Positions 487 through 62,137 of a stretch of 64,000 nucleotides of DNA are shown in pieces (position 1 is the first letter of the stretch; every line of letters begins with the position of its first letter). This stretch comes from Butyribacter intestini. Lineage in GTDB: Bacteria; Bacillota; Clostridia; Lachnospirales; Lachnospiraceae. The stretch is from positions 1-64,000 of the forward strand of contig LLKB01000006.1 of the NCBI GenBank assembly GCA_001414325.1, given 5' to 3'. Below the pieces are notes generated by a model. It was not told where the DNA came from and searched no databases. It saw only the letters and a program-made list of their open reading frames with translations. A program made the translations under genes and the position numbers.

Positions 487-502
487 TAGGCAAAATATTT
501 AT

Positions 503-576
503 GGACCTTTAGCTCAGTTGGTTAGAGCAATCGGCTCATAACCGATCGGTCCAGGGTTCGAGTCCCTGAGGGTCCA
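503..576 (+). tRNA. tRNA-Met (CAT)
   Basis: Acceptor GGACCTT pairs with AGGGTCC, the T arm is CAGGG/CCCTG, and the anticodon is CAT in loop CTCATAA. The paired first acceptor base argues against initiator tRNA. It is most likely elongator Met. A lysidine-modified Ile2 tRNA cannot be fully excluded from sequence alone. Confidence 0.93.
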
Positions 577-611
577 TTTTAGATAAATTAAGTAAGTAAG
601 AATGATATTTT

Positions 612-685
612 GGCCTGGTGGCTCAGTTGGTTAGAGCGCCGCCCTGTCACGGCGGAGGTCGAGGGTTCGAATCCCTTCCGGGTCG
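612..685 (+). tRNA. tRNA-Asp (GTC)
   Basis: Acceptor GGCCTGG pairs with CCGGGTC (two G-T wobbles), the T arm is GAGGG/CCCTT, and the anticodon is GTC in loop CTGTCAC. CCA is not encoded. Confidence 0.96.
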
Positions 686-713
686 TTTCTCTTGTATGTT
701 ACAAGATTTTACT

Positions 714-786
714 GGGATCTTAGCTCAGCTGGGAGAGCATCTGCCTTACAAGCAGAGGGTCACAGGTTCGAGCCCTGTAGGTCCCA
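714..786 (+). tRNA. tRNA-Val (TAC)
   Basis: Acceptor GGGATCT pairs with AGGTCCC, the T arm is ACAGG/CCTGT, and the anticodon is TAC in loop CTTACAA, reading GTA. Confidence 0.96.
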
Positions 787-811
787 TTATGACAATTTAA
801 TATTGTTGTAT

Positions 812-897
812 GCCGCAGTGGCGGAACTGGCAGACGCCCAGGACTTAAAATCCTGTGGGTAGTGATACCCGTACCGGTTCGATTCCGGTCTGCGGCA
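812..897 (+). tRNA. tRNA-Leu (TAA)
   Basis: This is a class II tRNA with a long variable arm (GGGTAGTGATACCC). Acceptor GCCGCAG pairs with CTGCGGC, and the anticodon is TAA in loop CTTAAAA. It is the last tRNA before the operon terminator. Confidence 0.96.
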
Positions 898-907
898 TTT
901 TTATTTA

Positions 908-947
908 GAAAAACTTCCAATATGGTTATATGTTGGAAGTTTTTTTG
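908..947 (+). terminator. Rho-independent terminator of the rRNA/tRNA operon
   Basis: An 11-bp stem (AAAACTTCCAA / TTGGAAGTTTT) is followed directly by a T run, 10 bases after tRNA-Leu. Confidence 0.88.
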
Positions 948-968
948 GCTTGTTAGAGGATATACCTA

Positions 969-1591
969 ATGCAACAATCTCTTTCTGAGATTGTTGCTCT
1001 AAAGTTGAAAACTATGCAGACGCTGTCATGTAGGGCATCTATAAGCAGGTTTCTTTGTTACCATGAGAAGTTAATTGATATGTATGCTTCTAAAAAGAAG
1101 ATGACAATGATGCCGGTAAATATAAATGGCAATGAGTTTAAGTTTTCTGCTGGTAAACATAATGAGCTACAGAAGGCTATTATTGAAGAATTTGCACCAA
1201 GATTTACACCAAATTTTCTGAATGTTTATATGTTGGAGATACAATAGAAAAAGATCTTGTAAAAAATGTTGATAAATTGAAAGAGTTTGGATTTGAGATT
1301 ACGCTTCATGATAAAATGCCGGATGTAGTGCTATATCGTGAGGACAAGAACTGGATTTATTTTGTTGAGTCAGTAACATCTGTAGGACTGATGGATCCGA
1401 AACGCATATTGGAAATTACAGAAATGACGAAAGATGTCACGGCAGGAAAAATATTTGTAACAGCATTTCTGGATTTTAAGACATATAAAAGGTTTGCAGA
1501 GGAACTTGCATGGGAAACAGAGGTCTGGATTGCTGAAATGCCAGAGCATATGATACATTTGAATGGTGATCGATTTATGGGGCCAAGATAG
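969..1591 (+). pseudogene. Decayed BsuBI/PstI-family type II restriction endonuclease
   Basis: The last ~100 codons (1277-1591) read as the C-terminal nuclease region of the BsuBI/PstI family, including PDVVLYREDKNWIYFVESV and ITEMTKDVTAGKI. The matching upstream part is in another frame (969-1247, ending in FAPRFTPN). Joining them needs one base restored in a T run near 1217, after which the frame continues SECLYVGDTIEKD. Further upstream, a third frame around 1004-1065 reads VENYADAVM, a TAG stop at 1031, then GIYKQVSLLP, which suggests a second frameshift. The total of ~200 codons is well below the ~320 usual for the family, so the N-terminus is missing too. No methyltransferase gene is nearby. 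I infer a dead relic of a restriction-modification insertion beside the tRNA cluster. Confidence 0.78.
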
Positions 1592-1783
1592 AATGAAAAA
1601 TTTATATGGCAAAATCTAAAGTGTGATAAGTATTGGTTAAATTTATGGGGATTAGTATCGTTAAAGATGTTTGCTTCTTGAGAAAATTGTATATAAGTGT
1701 TATTATAAATATAAGATACTTAAAATAATAATACTATCAGGCATTTAGCTTGATAAAGTATTAGAATTGTTTAGGGGAGAGAA

Positions 1784-2374
1784 ATGGGTAGAGAAAATAA
1801 AGGTATAAGAATTTCATTTAATTCACCGGTTATTTTGATTTTTTCAATAGCGAGTCTTTTGGTATTAGGACTTAGCTATATGACCGGAGGTGTTTCAGAC
1901 AGGTTATTATTTTGCGTGTATAGATCGTCTTTGTCAGATCCTTTGACATATTTCAGATTTTTCGGTCATGTTCTTGGTCATGCAAACTGGGAACATTTTC
2001 TTAGTAATATTATGATGATTCTTGTTGTGGGTCCGCTTCTTGAAGAAAAGTATGGCTCGACAGATACACTGTTTGTCATATTGACGACAGCATTTGTCAC
2101 CGGACTTATTCATTTTATCTTTTTTCCCAATGTTGCTCTTTTAGGGGCGAGTGGTATTGTTTTTGCGTTTATATTGCTTGCAAGTATGACGAGTATAGAA
2201 GATGGCAAAATTCCGCTTACTTTTATTCTTGTCGCAGTTATCTATATAGGCGGTCAGATACGGGATGGAATTCTGGTAAAAGATGATGTATCAAATCTGA
2301 CACATATAATCGGAGGAATTGTCGGTTCTGTATTTGGATTTGCTATGAATAAATACAGGGTGAGGAAATATTGA
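1784..2374 (+). CDS. Rhomboid family intramembrane serine protease
   Basis: The 196-residue protein has several hydrophobic segments. The catalytic GASG motif gives Ser123 (residues 121-124), and His174 in SNLTHIIGG lies in the last membrane helix. The HANWEHFLSN segment near residue 66 is the usual loop/helix 2 signature. Rhomboids cleave transmembrane proteins inside the bilayer. The substrate cannot be read from the sequence. The start ATG follows GGGGAGAGAA. It lies about 100 bases upstream of the yceG-like gene on the same strand and may be part of the stress module, but no shared transcript is proven. Confidence 0.85.
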   Translation: MGRENKGIRISFNSPVILIFSIASLLVLGLSYMTGGVSDRLLFCVYRSSLSDPLTYFRFFGHVLGHANWEHFLSNIMMILVVGPLLEEKYGSTDTLFVILTTAFVTGLIHFIFFPNVALLGASGIVFAFILLASMTSIEDGKIPLTFILVAVIYIGGQIRDGILVKDDVSNLTHIIGGIVGSVFGFAMNKYRVRKY

Positions 2375-2480
2375 GATTAGCAAATCATGACATTGATAAA
2401 TGATTACGGCAAAAATATTGAGATTGCAATTATATCATTAAATAAAAATACAAATACCGACGGATATTGAGGTGGTAAAA

Positions 2481-5252
2481 GTGTCATTTAAGCATATGAA
2501 AATTCAAAGCCTTGACGATTTCTTTGTTCCGCTTAGCGGACGGAGTGAAAAAGGAATTTATTTTTATCGTTTTAACAAAACATCTGATAAAATAGATGAA
2601 TTTATTTATAAATATTATAATGCGGCGAGAAAATCTGGTGTTGTAATTGACGGGAAGATAGGAAATCCGACTGAAAGTAATCTTTCGTATTATCAGGAGA
2701 TTATGGGGATGGATTTTCAGATGAGCATGGGATTTATTTCTGATTCTTTGAAAAAATGGCTGCCACGCATGAGGTCGATTCAGCGTGAAAATATTGCAGG
2801 GGCGATATATGATGTTCTTGACGGACTGCGAAGAAGTGGTAAGAATGAAAATATGCTTAAAAATGCGTATATCAAATTTATGTGCTGGCTTTATTATAAA
2901 TTTGAGGGCATCGTGGAGCAGATGAACGGTGAGAATATTCCAAAGATTTTTTTCGTGGGAGATATTGTCGGCTATGAATTTATGCTTATAAATATACTTG
3001 CTGATGCAGGATGCGATGTTGTTTTTGTTCAGCCACATGGAGATGCGTATTATCTTAAGGTTGATGGAAATTTAGAAAAGTCTTTTGAGTATGTGGGAGA
3101 AAACGGTGCGGCAGAGCAAGATGTAATGAGAGCGTTTGCGGCAGATTTTAGTATAAAAAGTATGCTTGAAAATCATGATTTTAAGGCACAGAGAGAAAAC
3201 GGTCAAGGAACGGTAAGTTCGCAGGCAGAAGTACAGAGAGCGAAAAGTCAAGGAACGATAAAGTTGCAGTCAGGAGGACAGGAAACAAAAAGTCATGGAA
3301 TGGGAGGTTCGCAAGTAGATGTGCAGAACATACAAAGACAAGAAAGTGGAATAACGCAGGCAGAAGAAAAGAGTACGAAATCTTTACAGAACAAAAAAAG
3401 TTTAAATATAAAAATTCAGAGTACAGAAGCAGACAATATAAATAGTATGGCAGACAGAGGTGGTTCACAGCCAAAAATATCGTATAAGGTTTCTACTCGT
3501 AATTGCACTAATGTCTGGATAGAGGGCAATGGGCTTGACGATTTTTTGCAGCCGGCAGGGGTCAGAAAAGACAGATTTAGGAAATTATATGAAAACGAAA
3601 GAAGAACAGAAAAAGTAAACAATGTAGAAAATGCACAGAATTTGCATATAAGAAATGCAGATAAAGTAAACGATATAGAAAATGCACAGAATTTGCATAA
3701 TATAAGAAATATAGAAAATAATCTGGGAAATGGGATGTTTTCTGCTGATAATGCACAGGGTTATGGGGCAGATAAAGATAAAATATTTTTAAACTGTTAT
3801 GTAAGGATAAACGGTGTCTGGGACAAACTTACATATGAAAATGAACTTTATCAATTTTATCTTTCGCTTAAGGCTATGAAACGAAATGTTGTTGTCATTA
3901 GTGAGCTGATACCTAAGCCTGATGTTGATGAGATTGCAAAGATAAGGAGAGGAAATTACCGTGATGTTTTTCAGCTTGTAAAGGGACTTGAATTAAATAT
4001 CAATTTTACCGAAAATCCGATAGTTAGTGAGTTTCTTATCAATTCTTTTGAGGATACTGTTTATGGAGAGGCGGACAGGCTTGGGACAGGTGCAAATATA
4101 AATAAAATTTTGAATAAAGCCGTATATCTTCTTTGTTTTATTAACAGATATCAGGCGCAGTTTTTTAAGAATTTCAGCTATGACAACATACCGTGTTTTA
4201 TTTATATGGGTGGCTGCAATGATGAAAATGAAGCTATGTTTATGCATTTTCTTGCAAGGACACCGATTGATGTGCTTATTTTATGTCCAAACAGGGCAGA
4301 GAGATGCCGACTTGAGGATAATATTCTGTATGATATAAACTATGAGGAACAGCTTGCCATAGATAAATTTCCTATACAAAATTCGGGGCTGCACATAGGT
4401 ACGGCGGCATACCATGCGGAGAGAGAGCTTGACACACTTATGTATAACGATGATACCATATTCAGGGATAAACAGTATGATAAAGCACGGACTGTTTCAT
4501 TGCAGACTATGGACAGGGAAATCAAGATTTTGTGGGAGACTGAGATTAAGTACAGACCGGGATTTTCGACTGTTGACGGTTCTGTAAATATTCCTGTTAT
4601 CTTTTCTAAGTTTTCGGGTGTAAAAGACGGAAATGTCAGAGAATATATGATAATGTTAAAAAAGCTTATGACACCTGAAACGGTTGTTGTAGACAAAGTT
4701 CCTAATATTCTTTCGACAGATGCAAATCCGATTAAAGAATATGCCACAGAATTTTTTAAGAATGGCAGGCTGCACAGGGACAAGATAAAAAAAAGCAGGG
4801 CATACCGGTATGGTTTTCTGCGTGATGAGATGCAGGATTATATTCTTGACAAACTGGAATTTTTGATAGCACAAAAATATATTAAGGGGACTTTTGAAAA
4901 TGGAACTGAATATACTATAGTTTCAGTGGCTCTTAATCTGCCTAAGGAAGTGACAAGGCTTTTGCAGGCATTTGATTTTACTAAGAAAAATCCAAAACTT
5001 TTGTATATAAATACATCAGACGAGCTGATTTCCTTAGAAGATACGATTTATCTTACTTTTTTGCATTTGCTCGGTTTTGATGTTGCTTTATTTGTGCCTA
5101 CGGGTTACAATATGGAAAAATATTTCAATTTGAAACTTATGGAAGAACATCAGCTCGGTGACTATATATATGATATTCAGATACCGGACTGGGAAAGTAT
5201 TCCGTTAAGTTTGCACACATCATGGCGTGACAGGTTGTTCAGGCATGGTTGA
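2481..5252 (+). CDS. YceG-like component of the Ter stress system
   Basis: The N-terminal (about 1-230) and C-terminal (about 430-920) parts resemble the YceG family encoded next to TelA and TerD genes in Firmicutes. The family's biochemical role is unsettled; published domain analysis links Ter modules to metal sensing and a nucleoside-like metabolite. Residues ~234-430 form a polar, low-complexity insert rich in Gln, Ser, Lys and Asn, with an imperfect internal repeat (two copies of ENAQNLH at 3627-3700). I chose GTG at 2481 because GAGGTGG lies five bases upstream. An in-frame GTG at 2472 would sit inside that ribosome site. It is the first gene of a same-strand series with telA, two terD genes and a P-type ATPase. 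Confidence 0.7.
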   Translation: MSFKHMKIQSLDDFFVPLSGRSEKGIYFYRFNKTSDKIDEFIYKYYNAARKSGVVIDGKIGNPTESNLSYYQEIMGMDFQMSMGFISDSLKKWLPRMRSIQRENIAGAIYDVLDGLRRSGKNENMLKNAYIKFMCWLYYKFEGIVEQMNGENIPKIFFVGDIVGYEFMLINILADAGCDVVFVQPHGDAYYLKVDGNLEKSFEYVGENGAAEQDVMRAFAADFSIKSMLENHDFKAQRENGQGTVSSQAEVQRAKSQGTIKLQSGGQETKSHGMGGSQVDVQNIQRQESGITQAEEKSTKSLQNKKSLNIKIQSTEADNINSMADRGGSQPKISYKVSTRNCTNVWIEGNGLDDFLQPAGVRKDRFRKLYENERRTEKVNNVENAQNLHIRNADKVNDIENAQNLHNIRNIENNLGNGMFSADNAQGYGADKDKIFLNCYVRINGVWDKLTYENELYQFYLSLKAMKRNVVVISELIPKPDVDEIAKIRRGNYRDVFQLVKGLELNINFTENPIVSEFLINSFEDTVYGEADRLGTGANINKILNKAVYLLCFINRYQAQFFKNFSYDNIPCFIYMGGCNDENEAMFMHFLARTPIDVLILCPNRAERCRLEDNILYDINYEEQLAIDKFPIQNSGLHIGTAAYHAERELDTLMYNDDTIFRDKQYDKARTVSLQTMDREIKILWETEIKYRPGFSTVDGSVNIPVIFSKFSGVKDGNVREYMIMLKKLMTPETVVVDKVPNILSTDANPIKEYATEFFKNGRLHRDKIKKSRAYRYGFLRDEMQDYILDKLEFLIAQKYIKGTFENGTEYTIVSVALNLPKEVTRLLQAFDFTKKNPKLLYINTSDELISLEDTIYLTFLHLLGFDVALFVPTGYNMEKYFNLKLMEEHQLGDYIYDIQIPDWESIPLSLHTSWRDRLFRHG

Positions 5253-16012: not shown

Positions 16013-16041
16013 TTGCACTAATTATAAACTTAATGTATAAT
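16013..16041 (+). promoter_or_regulatory. Predicted promoter of the thiD leader
   Basis: TTGCAC (16013-16018) and TATAAT (16036-16041) are 17 bases apart, immediately upstream of the TPP riboswitch. A family A end-like motif (AACAGTTCAGCC, 15981-15992) lies about 20 bases upstream. Confidence 0.7.
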
Positions 16042-16043
16042 AG

Positions 16044-16141
16044 CCGATGCGGGGGAGCTTGTGCGTGAAACAGGCTGAGAGTAGATTGCGTATCTTAACC
16101 CTTATAACCTGATGGATAATGCCAGCGTAGGAAGTTGTCGG
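16044..16141 (+). promoter_or_regulatory. TPP riboswitch (THI element)
   Basis: The conserved parts are in order: GCGGGGGAGC, the CTGAGA box (16075-16080), ACCCTTATAACCTGAT, and the second helix ATAATGCCAGCGTAGGAA, closed by CCGA/TCGG. Binding of thiamin pyrophosphate should turn the downstream operon (thiD, cytX) off through the terminator at 16166-16201. Confidence 0.95.
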
Positions 16142-16165
16142 TATAGATTTGCAATGATTTATGTT

Positions 16166-30216: not shown

Positions 30217-30226
30217 TTTTTAGTGA

Positions 30227-30287
30227 TTGTGAAACTAATTATTTGTTATATTTCACAATTTAATTTCAGATTATGATAGTTTCACAA
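30227..30287 (+). repeat. Inverted-end spacer element (TTGTGAAACT...AGTTTCACAA)
   Basis: The ends are exact complements and resemble the family B ends (TTGCGAAACT), with GTG in place of GCG. It lies between the binding-protein and HAD genes. It is probably a small diverged family B relative. Confidence 0.45.
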
Positions 30288-30324
30288 ATATTTTAAGTAA
30301 GTATATGGAAAGAGGGGACGAGCG

Positions 30325-46218: not shown

Positions 46219-46244
46219 AATAAATTATGATAAACTAAATTTAG

Positions 46245-46312
46245 TTATATGACTGACGGAAGTGGAAGTGACCACAGGGAGTATAACAGTTTGACAGCCG
46301 ACCGTCTGGGCA
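46245..46312 (+). promoter_or_regulatory. ZTP riboswitch (pfl motif)
   Basis: GACTGACGGAAGTGG, then CCACAGGGAGT, and after a variable linker CCGACCGTCTGGGCA match the conserved parts of the ZTP/ZMP aptamer, the last being the pseudoknotted half. The downstream gene uses AICAR (ZMP), the molecule sensed, so ZMP build-up should turn expression on. Confidence 0.88.
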
Positions 46313-46343
46313 GAAAAGTTCCCGGAAGTGTCGGTTTTTTTTT
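46298..46343 (+). terminator. ZTP riboswitch terminator
   Basis: CCGAC/GTCGG and CTGGG/TCCCGG pair around an AAAAG loop, followed by nine T bases. The left arm overlaps the 3' half of the aptamer, so ligand binding would block it, as in known ZTP switches. Confidence 0.85.
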
Positions 46344-46352
46344 CATTAGGCA

Positions 46353-46552
46353 TTTGCGAAACTATCATAAAACTTCATTAAATTGTGCAGGTATAACAAA
46401 TAGTGTTAGTCGGCATTTTTGTCGTCGTCAGCACTTAATCAGCGTTTTTTGCTGATTTATGTACTGCTACGAACGACAACATAGCGAAAGCGTGCCGACG
46501 ATATTATTTGTTATATCTGTGCAATTAACACAACCTATAATTAGTTTCGCAA
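46353..46552 (+). repeat. Family B long-hairpin structured element, full member 1
   Basis: The 200-bp element folds as one long imperfect hairpin from TTTGCGAAACT to AGTTTCGCAA, with further paired arms (AATTGTGCAG/CTGTGCAATT, TATAACAAAT/ATTTGTTATA). The head (46409-46499) has helices GTCGGCA/TGCCGAC, TTGTCGT/ACGACAA and ATCAGC/GCTGAT plus a GCGAAAGC tetraloop hairpin. Its loop sequences CGTCAGCACTTA, TTATGTACTGCTACGA and GCGAAAGCGTGCC recur in the element at 61478-61622. It lies between the ZTP switch terminator and the gene it controls. Confidence 0.75.
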
Positions 46553-46588
46553 TCACCTATATATTTCATTTACGAAAGGAGATATTTA

Positions 46589-47767
46589 ATGAACGAAATT
46601 CAGTTAAAATACGGATGCAATCCAAATCAGAAACCAGCAAGAGTATTTATGAAAGATGGAAGTGACCTGCCTTTTGAGGTTTTAAACGGAAAGCCGGGAT
46701 ATATAAATCTTCTGGATGCTTTTAACAGCTGGCAGCTTGTTAAGGAAGTAAAAGAGGCTACAGGTCATGTCGCAGCAGCTTCATTTAAGCATGTAAGTCC
46801 TGCCGGAGCCGCTATAGATGTACCTCTTACGGACACTATGAAAAAGGTTTATTTCGTAGATGATGATATAGAACTTACTCCTATGGCGACAGCTTACATC
46901 AGAGCAAGAGGAGCTGACAGAATGTCATCTTTCGGTGATTTTGTGGCACTCTCAGATGAGTGTGACGAAGCAACAGCAAAATATCTTAAGTCGCTTGTTT
47001 CAGATGGCATCATTGCACCGTCATATTCGGACGAAGCACTTGAGATACTTAAGGGCAAAAAGCGTGGAAATTACTGCGTTATCAAGATTGACCCTGATTA
47101 TGAAGCAGCACCGCTTGAGACAAAAGATGTATTCGGAATCACATTTGAGCAGGGACACAACACGGTCAAGACAACAAAGGAACTTTTTGCAAATATTGTA
47201 ACTGAGAAGAAAGAACTCTCAGAAGATGCATTAAATGATATGATAATTGCAAATATTGTACTTAAATATACACAGTCAAATTCAGTATGTTATGTAAAAG
47301 ACGGACAGGCAATCGGTATTGGTGCAGGACAGCAGTCACGCATCCACTGTACAAGACTTGCAGGGGATAAAGCAGACAAGTGGTTCTTACGCCAGTCACC
47401 AAAAGCACTTAATCTTCCTTTTAAGAATGACATCAGAAAACCTGACAGGGACAATACTATAGATGTATATCTTTCAGATGAATATATGGATGTTCTTGCA
47501 GACGGCAAATGGGAGCAGTTCTTCACAGAGAAGCCTGAACCTATGACAAGAGAGGAACGTGCGGAGTGGATTAAAAATCTTGACGGAGTTACACTCGGTT
47601 CAGATGCTTTTATCCCATTCAGCGACAATATCGAGCGTGCAAATAAGAGTGGTGTCAAGTATGTTGCACAGGCAGGCGGCTCAAAGAATGACCAGTCTGT
47701 AATCGATGCCTGCAACGAATTTGGAATACTCATGGCATTCACCGGACTTAGATTATTCCATCACTAA
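46589..47767 (+). CDS. AICAR formyltransferase (stand-alone PurH transformylase)
   Basis: The 392-residue protein corresponds to the AICAR transformylase domain of PurH without the IMP cyclohydrolase domain. Conserved parts include LKYGCNPNQKPA, AAASFKHVSPAGAAI and NIVLKYTQSNSVCYVKDGQAIGIGAGQQSR. It adds the formyl group of 10-formyl-THF to AICAR, giving FAICAR. The missing second step is supplied by the next gene. It starts after GAAAGGAG and is controlled by a ZTP riboswitch. Confidence 0.95.
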   Translation: MNEIQLKYGCNPNQKPARVFMKDGSDLPFEVLNGKPGYINLLDAFNSWQLVKEVKEATGHVAAASFKHVSPAGAAIDVPLTDTMKKVYFVDDDIELTPMATAYIRARGADRMSSFGDFVALSDECDEATAKYLKSLVSDGIIAPSYSDEALEILKGKKRGNYCVIKIDPDYEAAPLETKDVFGITFEQGHNTVKTTKELFANIVTEKKELSEDALNDMIIANIVLKYTQSNSVCYVKDGQAIGIGAGQQSRIHCTRLAGDKADKWFLRQSPKALNLPFKNDIRKPDRDNTIDVYLSDEYMDVLADGKWEQFFTEKPEPMTREERAEWIKNLDGVTLGSDAFIPFSDNIERANKSGVKYVAQAGGSKNDQSVIDACNEFGILMAFTGLRLFHH

Positions 47768-47850
47768 GATGTAATAATCGTAAAAAATTCATCTTGAATT
47801 TTTCGTTCAGAAGATTTCGAGAGTACATTACGGAAAAAACGGAGGTTTTT

Positions 47851-48564
47851 ATGGAAAAAGTATCTTTAAATAATGAACTCGCTTCAAATACATATCCGGG
47901 TAGAGGCATTGTTGTCGGAAAGACTGCTGACGGAAAGCATGCAGCAATCGCATATTTTATCATGGGCAGAAGTGAAAACAGCAGAAACAGGGTATTTGTG
48001 ACAGATGGCGACGGAATCCGCACACAGGCTTTTGACCCGTCAAAGCTTACAGACCCAAGTCTTATAATATACGCACCTGTCCGTGTTCTTGGCAATGACA
48101 CAATAGTTACAAACGGTGATCAGACAGATACGGTATATGAGCTTATGCAGGATGGTTCTACATTTGAACAGTCACTCTGCACAAGAGAGTTTGAGCCTGA
48201 TGAGCCAAACTTCACACCTAGGATTTCAGCTATACTTCATGTGGAAGACGGCGGATTTGACTATTCAATGTCTATCCTTAAAAGCAATAACGGAAATCCT
48301 GACTGCTGCAACAGATTTACATTTGACTATGAAAATCCGGTCGCAGGCGAGGGAAGATTTATCCATACATATATGCATGATGGAAATCCGCTTCCAAGTT
48401 TTGAGGGAGAGCCAAAGCTTGTTGAGATACCAAATGATATGGATGAGTTTGGCGAGCTTGTATGGAACAGCTTAAATGAAGATAATAAGGTATCGCTTTT
48501 TATCAGATTTATAAACATTGAAGACGGAACATTTGAGAGTAAGATTTATAATAAGAATAAATAA
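47851..48564 (+). CDS. IMP cyclohydrolase, archaeal PurO type
   Basis: The 237-residue protein shows ASNTYPGRGIVVGKTADGKH at its N-terminus (residues ~10-29), followed by AAIAYFIMGRSENSRNRVF, the signature of the PurO-like IMP cyclohydrolase family. It closes the ring of FAICAR to IMP, replacing the cyclohydrolase half of bifunctional PurH. The start is ATG at 47851 after ACGGAGG; an upstream ATG at 47794 lacks a site. The gene lies 83 bases after the transformylase, probably in one operon. Confidence 0.92.
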   Translation: MEKVSLNNELASNTYPGRGIVVGKTADGKHAAIAYFIMGRSENSRNRVFVTDGDGIRTQAFDPSKLTDPSLIIYAPVRVLGNDTIVTNGDQTDTVYELMQDGSTFEQSLCTREFEPDEPNFTPRISAILHVEDGGFDYSMSILKSNNGNPDCCNRFTFDYENPVAGEGRFIHTYMHDGNPLPSFEGEPKLVEIPNDMDEFGELVWNSLNEDNKVSLFIRFINIEDGTFESKIYNKNK

Positions 48565-61415: not shown

Positions 61416-61477
61416 AAAAATTCCTTTCATTGAGTTTTTTAATGATAGTTAATTGCAAAACAATCAAAAGACTACAT

Positions 61478-61622
61478 TTTTTGTGCAACTTTAAATATCA
61501 TAAGCAAGGTGCTTCTGACACCGTCGGTACTTAAGGTGTGTCTTTTACGCCTTTATGTACCGCTACGAGTGTCGGGCAGCGAGAGCGTGCCTTGTGTTGA
61601 TATTGTATATGTTGCACAAAAA
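61478..61622 (+). repeat. Family B long-hairpin structured element, full member 2
   Basis: The 145-bp element has ends TTTTTGTGCAAC and GTTGCACAAAAA, with inner arms AAATATCA/TGATATT. Its head has helices CTGACAC/GTGTCGG, CGGTAC/GTACCG and AGGTGT/ACGCCT and a GCGAGAGC tetraloop hairpin. Loop sequences CGTCGGTACTTA, TTATGTACCGCTACGA and GCGAGAGCGTGCC match member 1, while the helices differ by paired changes. It lies in the 386-base divergent spacer between prmA and the MNT gene. Confidence 0.75.
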
Positions 61623-61801
61623 TTCACAGCGTAATTTTCGTTTCGCTAATGTCTAAGTTTTATAATGATTGTAGCATATATAGATGTAAATGTGTACTGG
61701 TGTATTGTGTCACTGAATGATATAGCACTATGGGTTGTTGTTGCTCAGGTTTTGTGTTAAGGTATAAATAATATGTGTATGGTGGCTGAAAGGGGGATAA
61801 A

Positions 61802-62137
61802 ATGTCTGATATAATCTTAAATATTATAAATGAATATGTAGAAGCTGTAAAAAAAATATTTGGAACATACTTAATGAAAGTTATAGTATATGGTTCATAT
61901 GCAAGAGGGGATTACAATGAAAAATCTGATATAGATATTATGTTTATCGTAACTTTGGATGAAAATAAAATACATGAAACATTTAATGAGGTATGTGATA
62001 TTGCATTTGAATATGAAATGAAGTACGGAATAGTGATTTCGCCTATTATAAAAAATGATAAACATTTTGAAAAATGGATGGAGGTGCTTCCGTTCTACCA
62101 GAATGTTGTCAAGGAGGGAGTATGTGTATATGAATAA
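61802..62137 (+). CDS. MNT-type minimal nucleotidyltransferase
   Basis: The 111-residue protein has the pol-beta fold motif GSYARGDYNEKSDIDIMFIV (residues ~37-56), with the two catalytic Asp in DID. MNT proteins pair with HEPN RNases as toxin-antitoxin modules; some MntA proteins inactivate HepT by AMP transfer. The start follows AAAGGGG. The downstream HEPN gene is broken, so this antitoxin-like protein is now without its partner. Confidence 0.87.
   Translation: MSDIILNIINEYVEAVKKIFGTYLMKVIVYGSYARGDYNEKSDIDIMFIVTLDENKIHETFNEVCDIAFEYEMKYGIVISPIIKNDKHFEKWMEVLPFYQNVVKEGVCVYE

Follow-up and report, generated by a model that had tools for sequence, protein, structure and literature searches.

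A family of mobile repeats, found mainly in Lachnospiraceae, carries a branched and probably RNA core with a selected fold

The two repeats in the window (the whole 64,000-nt stretch of Butyribacter intestini DNA that was analysed) belong to a family of mobile repeats that is new and well supported, and whose core is under selection and is probably RNA. In our reading both sites are copies of one non-autonomous mobile element, with a structured core of ~97 nt as its cargo, and we consider it very probable that the family is a mobile element with a selected fold. The core is a three-way junction made up of P1, a long P2/P3 arm that carries a conserved CU bulge and an internal loop, and a 2-bp GNRA hairpin (Table 1). 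Each window copy folds by itself into a long stem with this junction on top, with folding z-scores against 200 shuffles of -10.15 for copy 1 and -7.40 for copy 2. A sequence-only reading of this DNA had described three loops shared in the same order by both copies, with helices of differing sequence between them, and this description holds: the loops are CGTCRGYACTTA, TTATGTACYGCTACGA and GCGARAGCGTGCC, the helix TTGTCGT/ACGACAA of copy 1 is CTGACAC/GTGTCGG in copy 2, the P3 stems also differ, the R-Y change in CRGYAC/GTACYG is present between the copies, and both have the hairpin with a GNRA tetraloop. P2b of copy 1 holds a C.A mismatch (CAGCAC/GTACTG). The start then given for copy 1, 46353, had to be moved, as it falls inside the left terminal repeat of the whole element.

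Table 1. Features of the two repeat copies, in window positions
Feature	Position	Strand	Details and basis
Copy 1, whole MITE-like element, 213 bp	46347..46559	+	Ends TAGGCATTTGCGAAACT / AGTTTCGCAATCACCTA; compared with sister copies
Copy 1, left imperfect target duplication	46337..46347	+	Partner 46560-46570; 9/11 positions by eye
Copy 1, right imperfect target duplication	46560..46570	+	From flanks
Copy 1, left terminal inverted repeat	46347..46363	+	
Copy 1, right terminal inverted repeat	46543..46559	+	
Copy 1, structured core	46405..46502	+	Model R1 match, 88.1 bits; fold prediction
Copy 1, P1, 5' strand	46409..46416	+	Partner 46492-46499; fold and covariation
Copy 1, P2a (46419-46425) and P2b (46426-46434), 5' strands	46419..46434	+	Fold and covariation
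Copy 1, P3 hairpin, T-rich loop	46437..46457	+	Fold and covariation
Copy 1, conserved loop and P2b 3' strand	46458..46472	+	TATGTACTGCTACGA, CU bulge, bulged A
Copy 1, P2a, 3' strand ACGACAA	46473..46479	+	Covariation
Copy 1, P4, 2-bp hairpin, GAAA loop (GC-GAAA-GC)	46484..46491	+	Fold and tetraloop survey
Copy 1, P1, 3' strand	46492..46499	+	Fold and covariation
Copy 2, whole MITE-like element, 210 bp	61446..61655	+	Ends TAGTTAATTGCAAAACA / CGTTTCGCTAATGTCTA
Copy 2, left imperfect target duplication	61433..61446	+	Partner 61656-61669; 13/14 positions by eye
Copy 2, right imperfect target duplication	61656..61669	+	From flanks
Copy 2, structured core	61501..61597	+	Model R1 match, 84.4 bits; fold prediction

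The window copies are two of many. With at most one mismatch allowed, the 15-base loop pattern TATGTAYYGCTACGA is present at 39 places in the genome of origin (3.61 Mb) and the reversed pattern at one. A covariance model, R1, was built with a hand-drawn structure from 12 cores, one of them from this genome and neither of the window copies among them; it matches copy 1 with E 3.4e-23 and copy 2 with E 4.2e-22, and gives at least 46 matches in the genome, for which 150 of 827 candidates were scored. The earlier count of two full members is therefore right for the window and wrong for the genome. Among 299 sampled genomes of the same family at least 102, own genome included, have R1 matches, a lower bound as 13 candidates were scored per genome. 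A sample of the phylum gave matches in 5 of 398 genomes, four of them (again with the own genome) in the same family; the fifth, G656, is from a different family and has a single weak hit (E 2.5e-5) which by eye retains the loops, a bulge, the GNRA loop and a stem of its own. Six genomes, picked for assembly quality or many matches, contain 20, 15, 46, 5, 27 and 7 matches.

An exact-pattern scan of other genomes returned at least 110 stretches, and the whole motif is present in 15 of those listed, 13 titled Lachnospiraceae or Lachnospira and two Eubacterium sp. MSJ-13. Applied to 58 of the other listed stretches, R1 found 17 more matches in 13 stretches, seven titled Lachnospiraceae and six from one MAG titled Candidatus Gastranaerophilales; the rest of these 58 have no R1 match, just what chance hits of a 15-mer would give. 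Judged by record titles, the core is found mainly in one bacterial family, Lachnospiraceae. The eight R1 matches of the Candidatus Gastranaerophilales MAG (L037, L051, L052, L060, L135, L140) may be due to cross-phylum transfer or a mis-binned genome. Viral contigs gave 0 matches to two strict patterns; elsewhere four weak phage records were found and no plasmids. Tandem or closely spaced cores occur at L226, L229 and G110:C21, with a period of 187 bp in G110.

Across many genera the core is under selection for its fold, on one strand. In alignment A4 (94 matches, 91 distinct) 31 of the 32 pairs change on both sides and 92.3% of cells are paired, compared with 68.3% (sd 0.5) in shuffles and 22.6-42.9% in slid versions, and the covariation score is 0.633 vs 0.193; none of the five measures was matched by any of 500 shuffles. 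Alignment A6, with 50 matches from 42 loci plus the window and mostly one locus per genome, mirrors this result, as 29 of 32 pairs have double changes, 94.0% of cells are paired and the covariation score is 0.647, with one of the five measures matched by 1 of 500 shuffles and the remaining four by none. Both alignments were fitted to R1 and are biased towards it. RNAalifold on a structure-free MAFFT alignment of 25 cores recovered P2b, P3, P4 and two P2a pairs, in a consensus of 20 pairs of which 11 have double changes, and did not recover P1, which this alignment leaves out of register. Among the unpaired letters, those conserved at 90% or above include the internal loop's TT and TA, the CU bulge's T, the A that precedes P4 and both outermost letters of the tetraloop. 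ACUUAG/UUAUGU may resemble the 11-nt GNRA receptor. The further homologues with covarying stems that the sequence-only reading called for are thus many, and their covariation is strong.

The pairs also indicate which strand folds. Over all pairs there are 110 G-U cells and 38 A-C cells, or 110 and 22 after dropping one position with a frequent C.A mismatch, and because a G-U on one strand would read A-C on the other, this excess identifies the + strand as the folding strand. A purine at the third position of a GNRA tetraloop is a rule of RNA loops. Of 161 distinct copies, 152 have a tetraloop that could be parsed; it is GNRA in 136 of these, GNYA in 2 and something else in 14, which favours RNA. 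The shape is also the same when the + strand is folded as DNA, at -21.8 kcal/mol and z -4.49, and for copy 1 the complementary RNA is about as stable as the + strand (-37.8 vs -37.3 kcal/mol), so single-sequence energies cannot decide on strand or molecule. We infer that the fold probably acts as RNA. Of the earlier proposal of a selected RNA structure, selection on the fold is borne out by covariation; its RNA nature is favoured by the GNRA loops and the strand asymmetry, folding of the same strand as DNA being the less likely alternative.

The family of the window copies is MITE-like, having both terminal inverted repeats and duplicated target sites. Eighteen full-size copies in the own genome measure 209-215 bp, end near TAGGYRWTTGCGAAACT and its complement, and have 17-bp terminal inverted repeats, the window copies included. 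Exact edge duplications of 10-14 bp (one end base may be counted in) accompany ten of the 18; the other eight, both window copies among them, are without an exact duplication of at least 10, and at the edges of both window copies the longest exact direct-repeat stretch is 7. Neither the 213- nor the 210-bp window element contains an ORF of 80 aa or more. PF01609, the one transposase family searched for, is found at five places in the own genome, none flanked by both element ends, and paired ends 500-5000 apart were met twice in 354 sequences, both cases being read as neighbouring elements. No transposase with these ends, and hence no partner for the element, came out of these searches, so its mobility today is putative. 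The shared loops are internal and are not the termini of a transposon; the window element itself is nonetheless transposon-like, with its terminal inverted repeats and, in many sister copies, edge duplications.

Elements with other ends carry this core too, and it also stands on long stems private to single copies. G188 elements have ends much like those of the window family, and in G178 the core lies inside elements ending GGGGCTGTAAAAA. Some G178 elements (L421, L424, L426, L427, L429, L430) are ~310 bp long and have an extra ~105-nt multi-hairpin block at the P2 bulge, as if the core tolerated an added peripheral domain. Some copies of the family are deleted, truncated or split by other repeats. 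Core-less copies of ~60-81 bp resemble, by eye, deletions between short repeats, and those of the own genome and G178 were set aside, again by eye, as apparent deletions or palindrome collapses. A core-less relative is present on the - strand of the window at 30223-30297, with a left end TTTGTGAAACTATCATAA at 30271-30288, a matching right end and an inner arm reduced to a remnant. A second small repeat, AACAGCGAGAAAATTTTATTTTCGAGCTGT or near it, is found within the core or in place of its 5' half in the own genome (L014, L016, L018, L276), and the G188 copies L313, L316 and L319 contain a similar AGCGAG...CGAGCT hairpin within the core.

Many copies lack both kinds of end and are borne on long stems. 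In 60 of 63 such stand-alone copies (13 from the own genome, 14 from G207, 19 from G180 and 17 others) the 5' arm has a better partner in its own 3' arm than in the 3' arm of any other copy of its set, with cis means of -29.6 to -34.5 kcal/mol vs -9.2 to -17.2 kcal/mol in trans. Terminal inverted repeats common to copies, as MITEs have them, are lacking here, the arms being nearly unrelated. In the 44 G180 pairs with cores at least 85% identical the arms average 61% and 60% identity, compared with 57-59% for pairs with less similar cores and 53% for random 22-mers of even composition; L329 and L331, for instance, agree at 96% of core positions and 50-55% of arm positions, and a single pair, L230 and L330, is alike in both (core 97%, arms 91% and 82%). 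Since near-identical cores carry nearly unrelated arms, the private arms have a higher turnover than P2a and P3, two helices that can themselves covary freely. In the own genome no pair of stand-alone cores exceeds 88% identity. Three readings of the private arms are left: they are made at insertion, ready palindromes are targeted, or gene conversion keeps old cores alike.

Several more specific schemes were tried and rejected. For simple insertion into a ready loop, the exact sequence GGCNNACGGACGC occurs at four places in the own genome, three at full core copies and one at a partial copy (with one mismatch, at 13 places vs 15 for the control), so that some stand-alone copies have a common foot outside the private stem; a foot GCGTCCGTNNGCC is common to some copies in the own genome. 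Insertion into terminators as a general rule was dropped, as no clear T-tract follows the private stems (mean T of 2.62, 3.14, 2.95 and 3.19 of 10 in four sets, raw values without a background), and so were guide-like arms, as one arm searched with up to three mismatches was found once, at its own place. Among the dnaB loci of 13 genomes (own, G698 and 11 others) the element is present only in the own genome and G698; the 11 others have no comparable hairpin by eye and, at 77-80% identity, are too distant to judge empty sites. Congeners of G180 are 69-78% identical, and they too yielded no usable empty site. A further model seems to us quite unlikely, namely that the core is a mobile unit which leaves its stem behind, each jump yielding a new site-private palindrome of 20-50 bp by fold-back copying of the flank or by use of a ready hairpin; the core would then be a structured-RNA parasite of hairpin tips, sometimes caught in a MITE, of which two kinds of ends are seen, and amplified with it.

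The positions of the core are not explained by any one cis role. With neighbours called as ORFs of at least 80 aa by a simple ORF caller, 44 of the 46 own-genome copies could be placed, and both neighbours are opposite in 24, both same-strand in 8, mixed in 8 and missing on one side in 4. A riboswitch or other cis-regulator is expected at a constant same-strand place upstream of a gene class, which the 8 of 44 do not show; given the lack of a constant gene relation, a mobile element fits better than a cis-regulator. An opposite gene lies beyond the 3' side in 11 of 13 stand-alone copies of the own genome; the stop codon of that gene lies at a distance of 39-49 nt in ten of these copies and of 73 nt in the eleventh. 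Forty loci of other genomes divide into 15 same-same, 13 opposite-opposite and 12 mixed. Downstream genes, where called, run in the direction of the core in 12 of 13 cases in G180 (19 copies) and against it in 10 of 12 in G178 (20 copies). Copy 1 follows a ZTP riboswitch and precedes the AICAR formyltransferase gene, in sense orientation (the order over 46239-48564 is ZTP riboswitch, repeat, AICAR formyltransferase, IMP cyclohydrolase-like gene), and its transcription would need read-through allowed by the riboswitch. Copy 2 is flanked by prmA and a nucleotidyltransferase-like gene; at 61802-62137 the window encodes a short nucleotidyltransferase-domain protein with a weak, sub-cut-off likeness to the MntA antitoxin and HalB models.

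One stand-alone copy, between dnaB and pgi, is common to the own genome and G698, a second species, with 136 of 151 positions identical and 5 gaps; beside it, dnaB is identical at 562 of 640 and the next 150 nt at 101 of 137 positions with 77 gaps. One of its pairs has changed on both sides with pairing kept, and by eye the own-genome copy has lost P2a pairs. The evidence for use in place is mixed, because the copy is conserved about as well as the adjoining coding DNA but has lost these pairs; its conservation hints at host use.

Our preferred account is that the fold is kept because the element needs it to spread; it might, for example, tag the element for selection by a trans-acting protein that binds RNA or ssDNA. 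That the fold is kept mainly for the element's own spread, rather than for regulation of each copy's neighbours, we give an even chance. Alternatively, the core could be an RNA module used by the host, with copies in untranslated regions being retained for an effect of the folded RNA on how the adjacent message is processed, decays or is read through. The sense placement of copy 1 behind the ZTP riboswitch, the dnaB-pgi copy with its doubly changed pair and the co-directional genes of G180 are consistent with this, as is the observation that among 14 distinct young own-genome copies the core varies by 0.029 and the arms by 0.063 per site. However, orientation varies between genomes (predominantly opposite-opposite in the own genome, opposite in G178), the dnaB-pgi copy is without some P2a pairs in the own genome, and copies are found deleted, truncated or split by other repeats, and we find host use doubtful.

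The same strand might instead fold as ssDNA during replication or transposition and be read by a DNA enzyme, like the hairpins of IS200/IS605, REP and attC. The DNA fold of the + strand does have the same shape, the stems are long palindromes and gene orientation is not constant; structured DNA is also the caveat that the authors of the comparable repeat MRSC-65-2 themselves raise in the part of PMC11109978 used here. Yet a third-position purine is kept in the tetraloop, and the window copies are bounded by conventional terminal inverted repeats and target duplications, which makes a DNA-level role unlikely. The ends of IS200/IS605 are unlike such conventional ends. A MITE in mere decay, in which the likeness between copies reflects recent copying of palindromes and the fold has no role, would account for the MITE-like window elements and the many deleted or broken copies, as palindromes fold by construction. 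It would leave unexplained a covariation in A4 that no shuffle reached, the same core with unrelated ends and unrelated arms and a GNRA rule that holds in nearly nine of ten parsed loops, and is so strongly disfavoured that we regard it as extremely improbable.

The earlier statement that the core is no known RNA family agrees with our Rfam searches, which gave no significant match to either copy. Across the whole window, Rfam 15 left the cores without a match at the gathering score, self-cleaving ribozyme families included; searched individually to E 10, each core gave only far sub-threshold matches, beside the ZTP riboswitch upstream of copy 1, and 15 loci of relatives gave only sub-threshold matches. 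The window also contains a TPP riboswitch match at 16041-16150 (56.3 bits vs a gathering score of 54.3). Searches of open-licence full texts gave no description of the core family. Should the fold drive mobility, it would open a way to learn how an element without genes is recognised; should the core act on messages, one and the same folded module would be attached to dozens of genes per genome in a large bacterial family. In both cases the covariance model could serve to annotate intergenic stretches in roughly a third of the family genomes sampled.

The nearest parallels are known repeats. MRSCs, such as MRSC-65-2, likewise have many copies per genome, inconsistent gene orientation and strong covariation, with the choice between RNA and DNA left open, in the part of PMC11109978 drawn on, and the core family shows the same copy number, inconsistent orientation and covarying structure. 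According to that source MRSC-65-2 itself consists of a single long stem that has a UYCCGG repeat; it comes from diverse phyla and is sometimes near a transposase gene, whereas the core family is branched, has a GNRA hairpin, comes mostly from one family and was not found with a transposase. Bacterial MITEs, as far as covered by the sections of PMC10969869 and PMC2229807 consulted, are likewise ~200 bp long, AT-rich and intergenic, with terminal inverted and edge direct repeats and transcripts predicted to fold; unlike them, our core is common to elements with different ends and also occurs without such ends, and those sections of the two reviews mention no MITE with a covariation-supported branched core. 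The bcr1-bcr18 repeats of the Bacillus cereus group are likewise high-copy and interspersed; from what we have of PMC3446304, bcr1-bcr3 are MITE-like, bcr10 and bcr18 have conserved secondary structure and about half are transcribed, and these repeats, from another host group, are set beside the core family by description alone. REP elements of the GTAG and CGTC classes are palindromic and of high copy number, some REP dimers lie inside longer palindromes and the CGTC class is without a known transposase (excerpts of PMC3733652). According to the same excerpts REPs are single hairpins of 20-40 bp with an unpaired tetranucleotide at one end; in place of such a palindrome with a GTAG or CGTC foot, the core has 97 nt and three helical arms. 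The kind of element is already known, among MITEs and mobile/repeat sequence candidates, and what is unusual is a branched core that is carried under different ends and on private stems.
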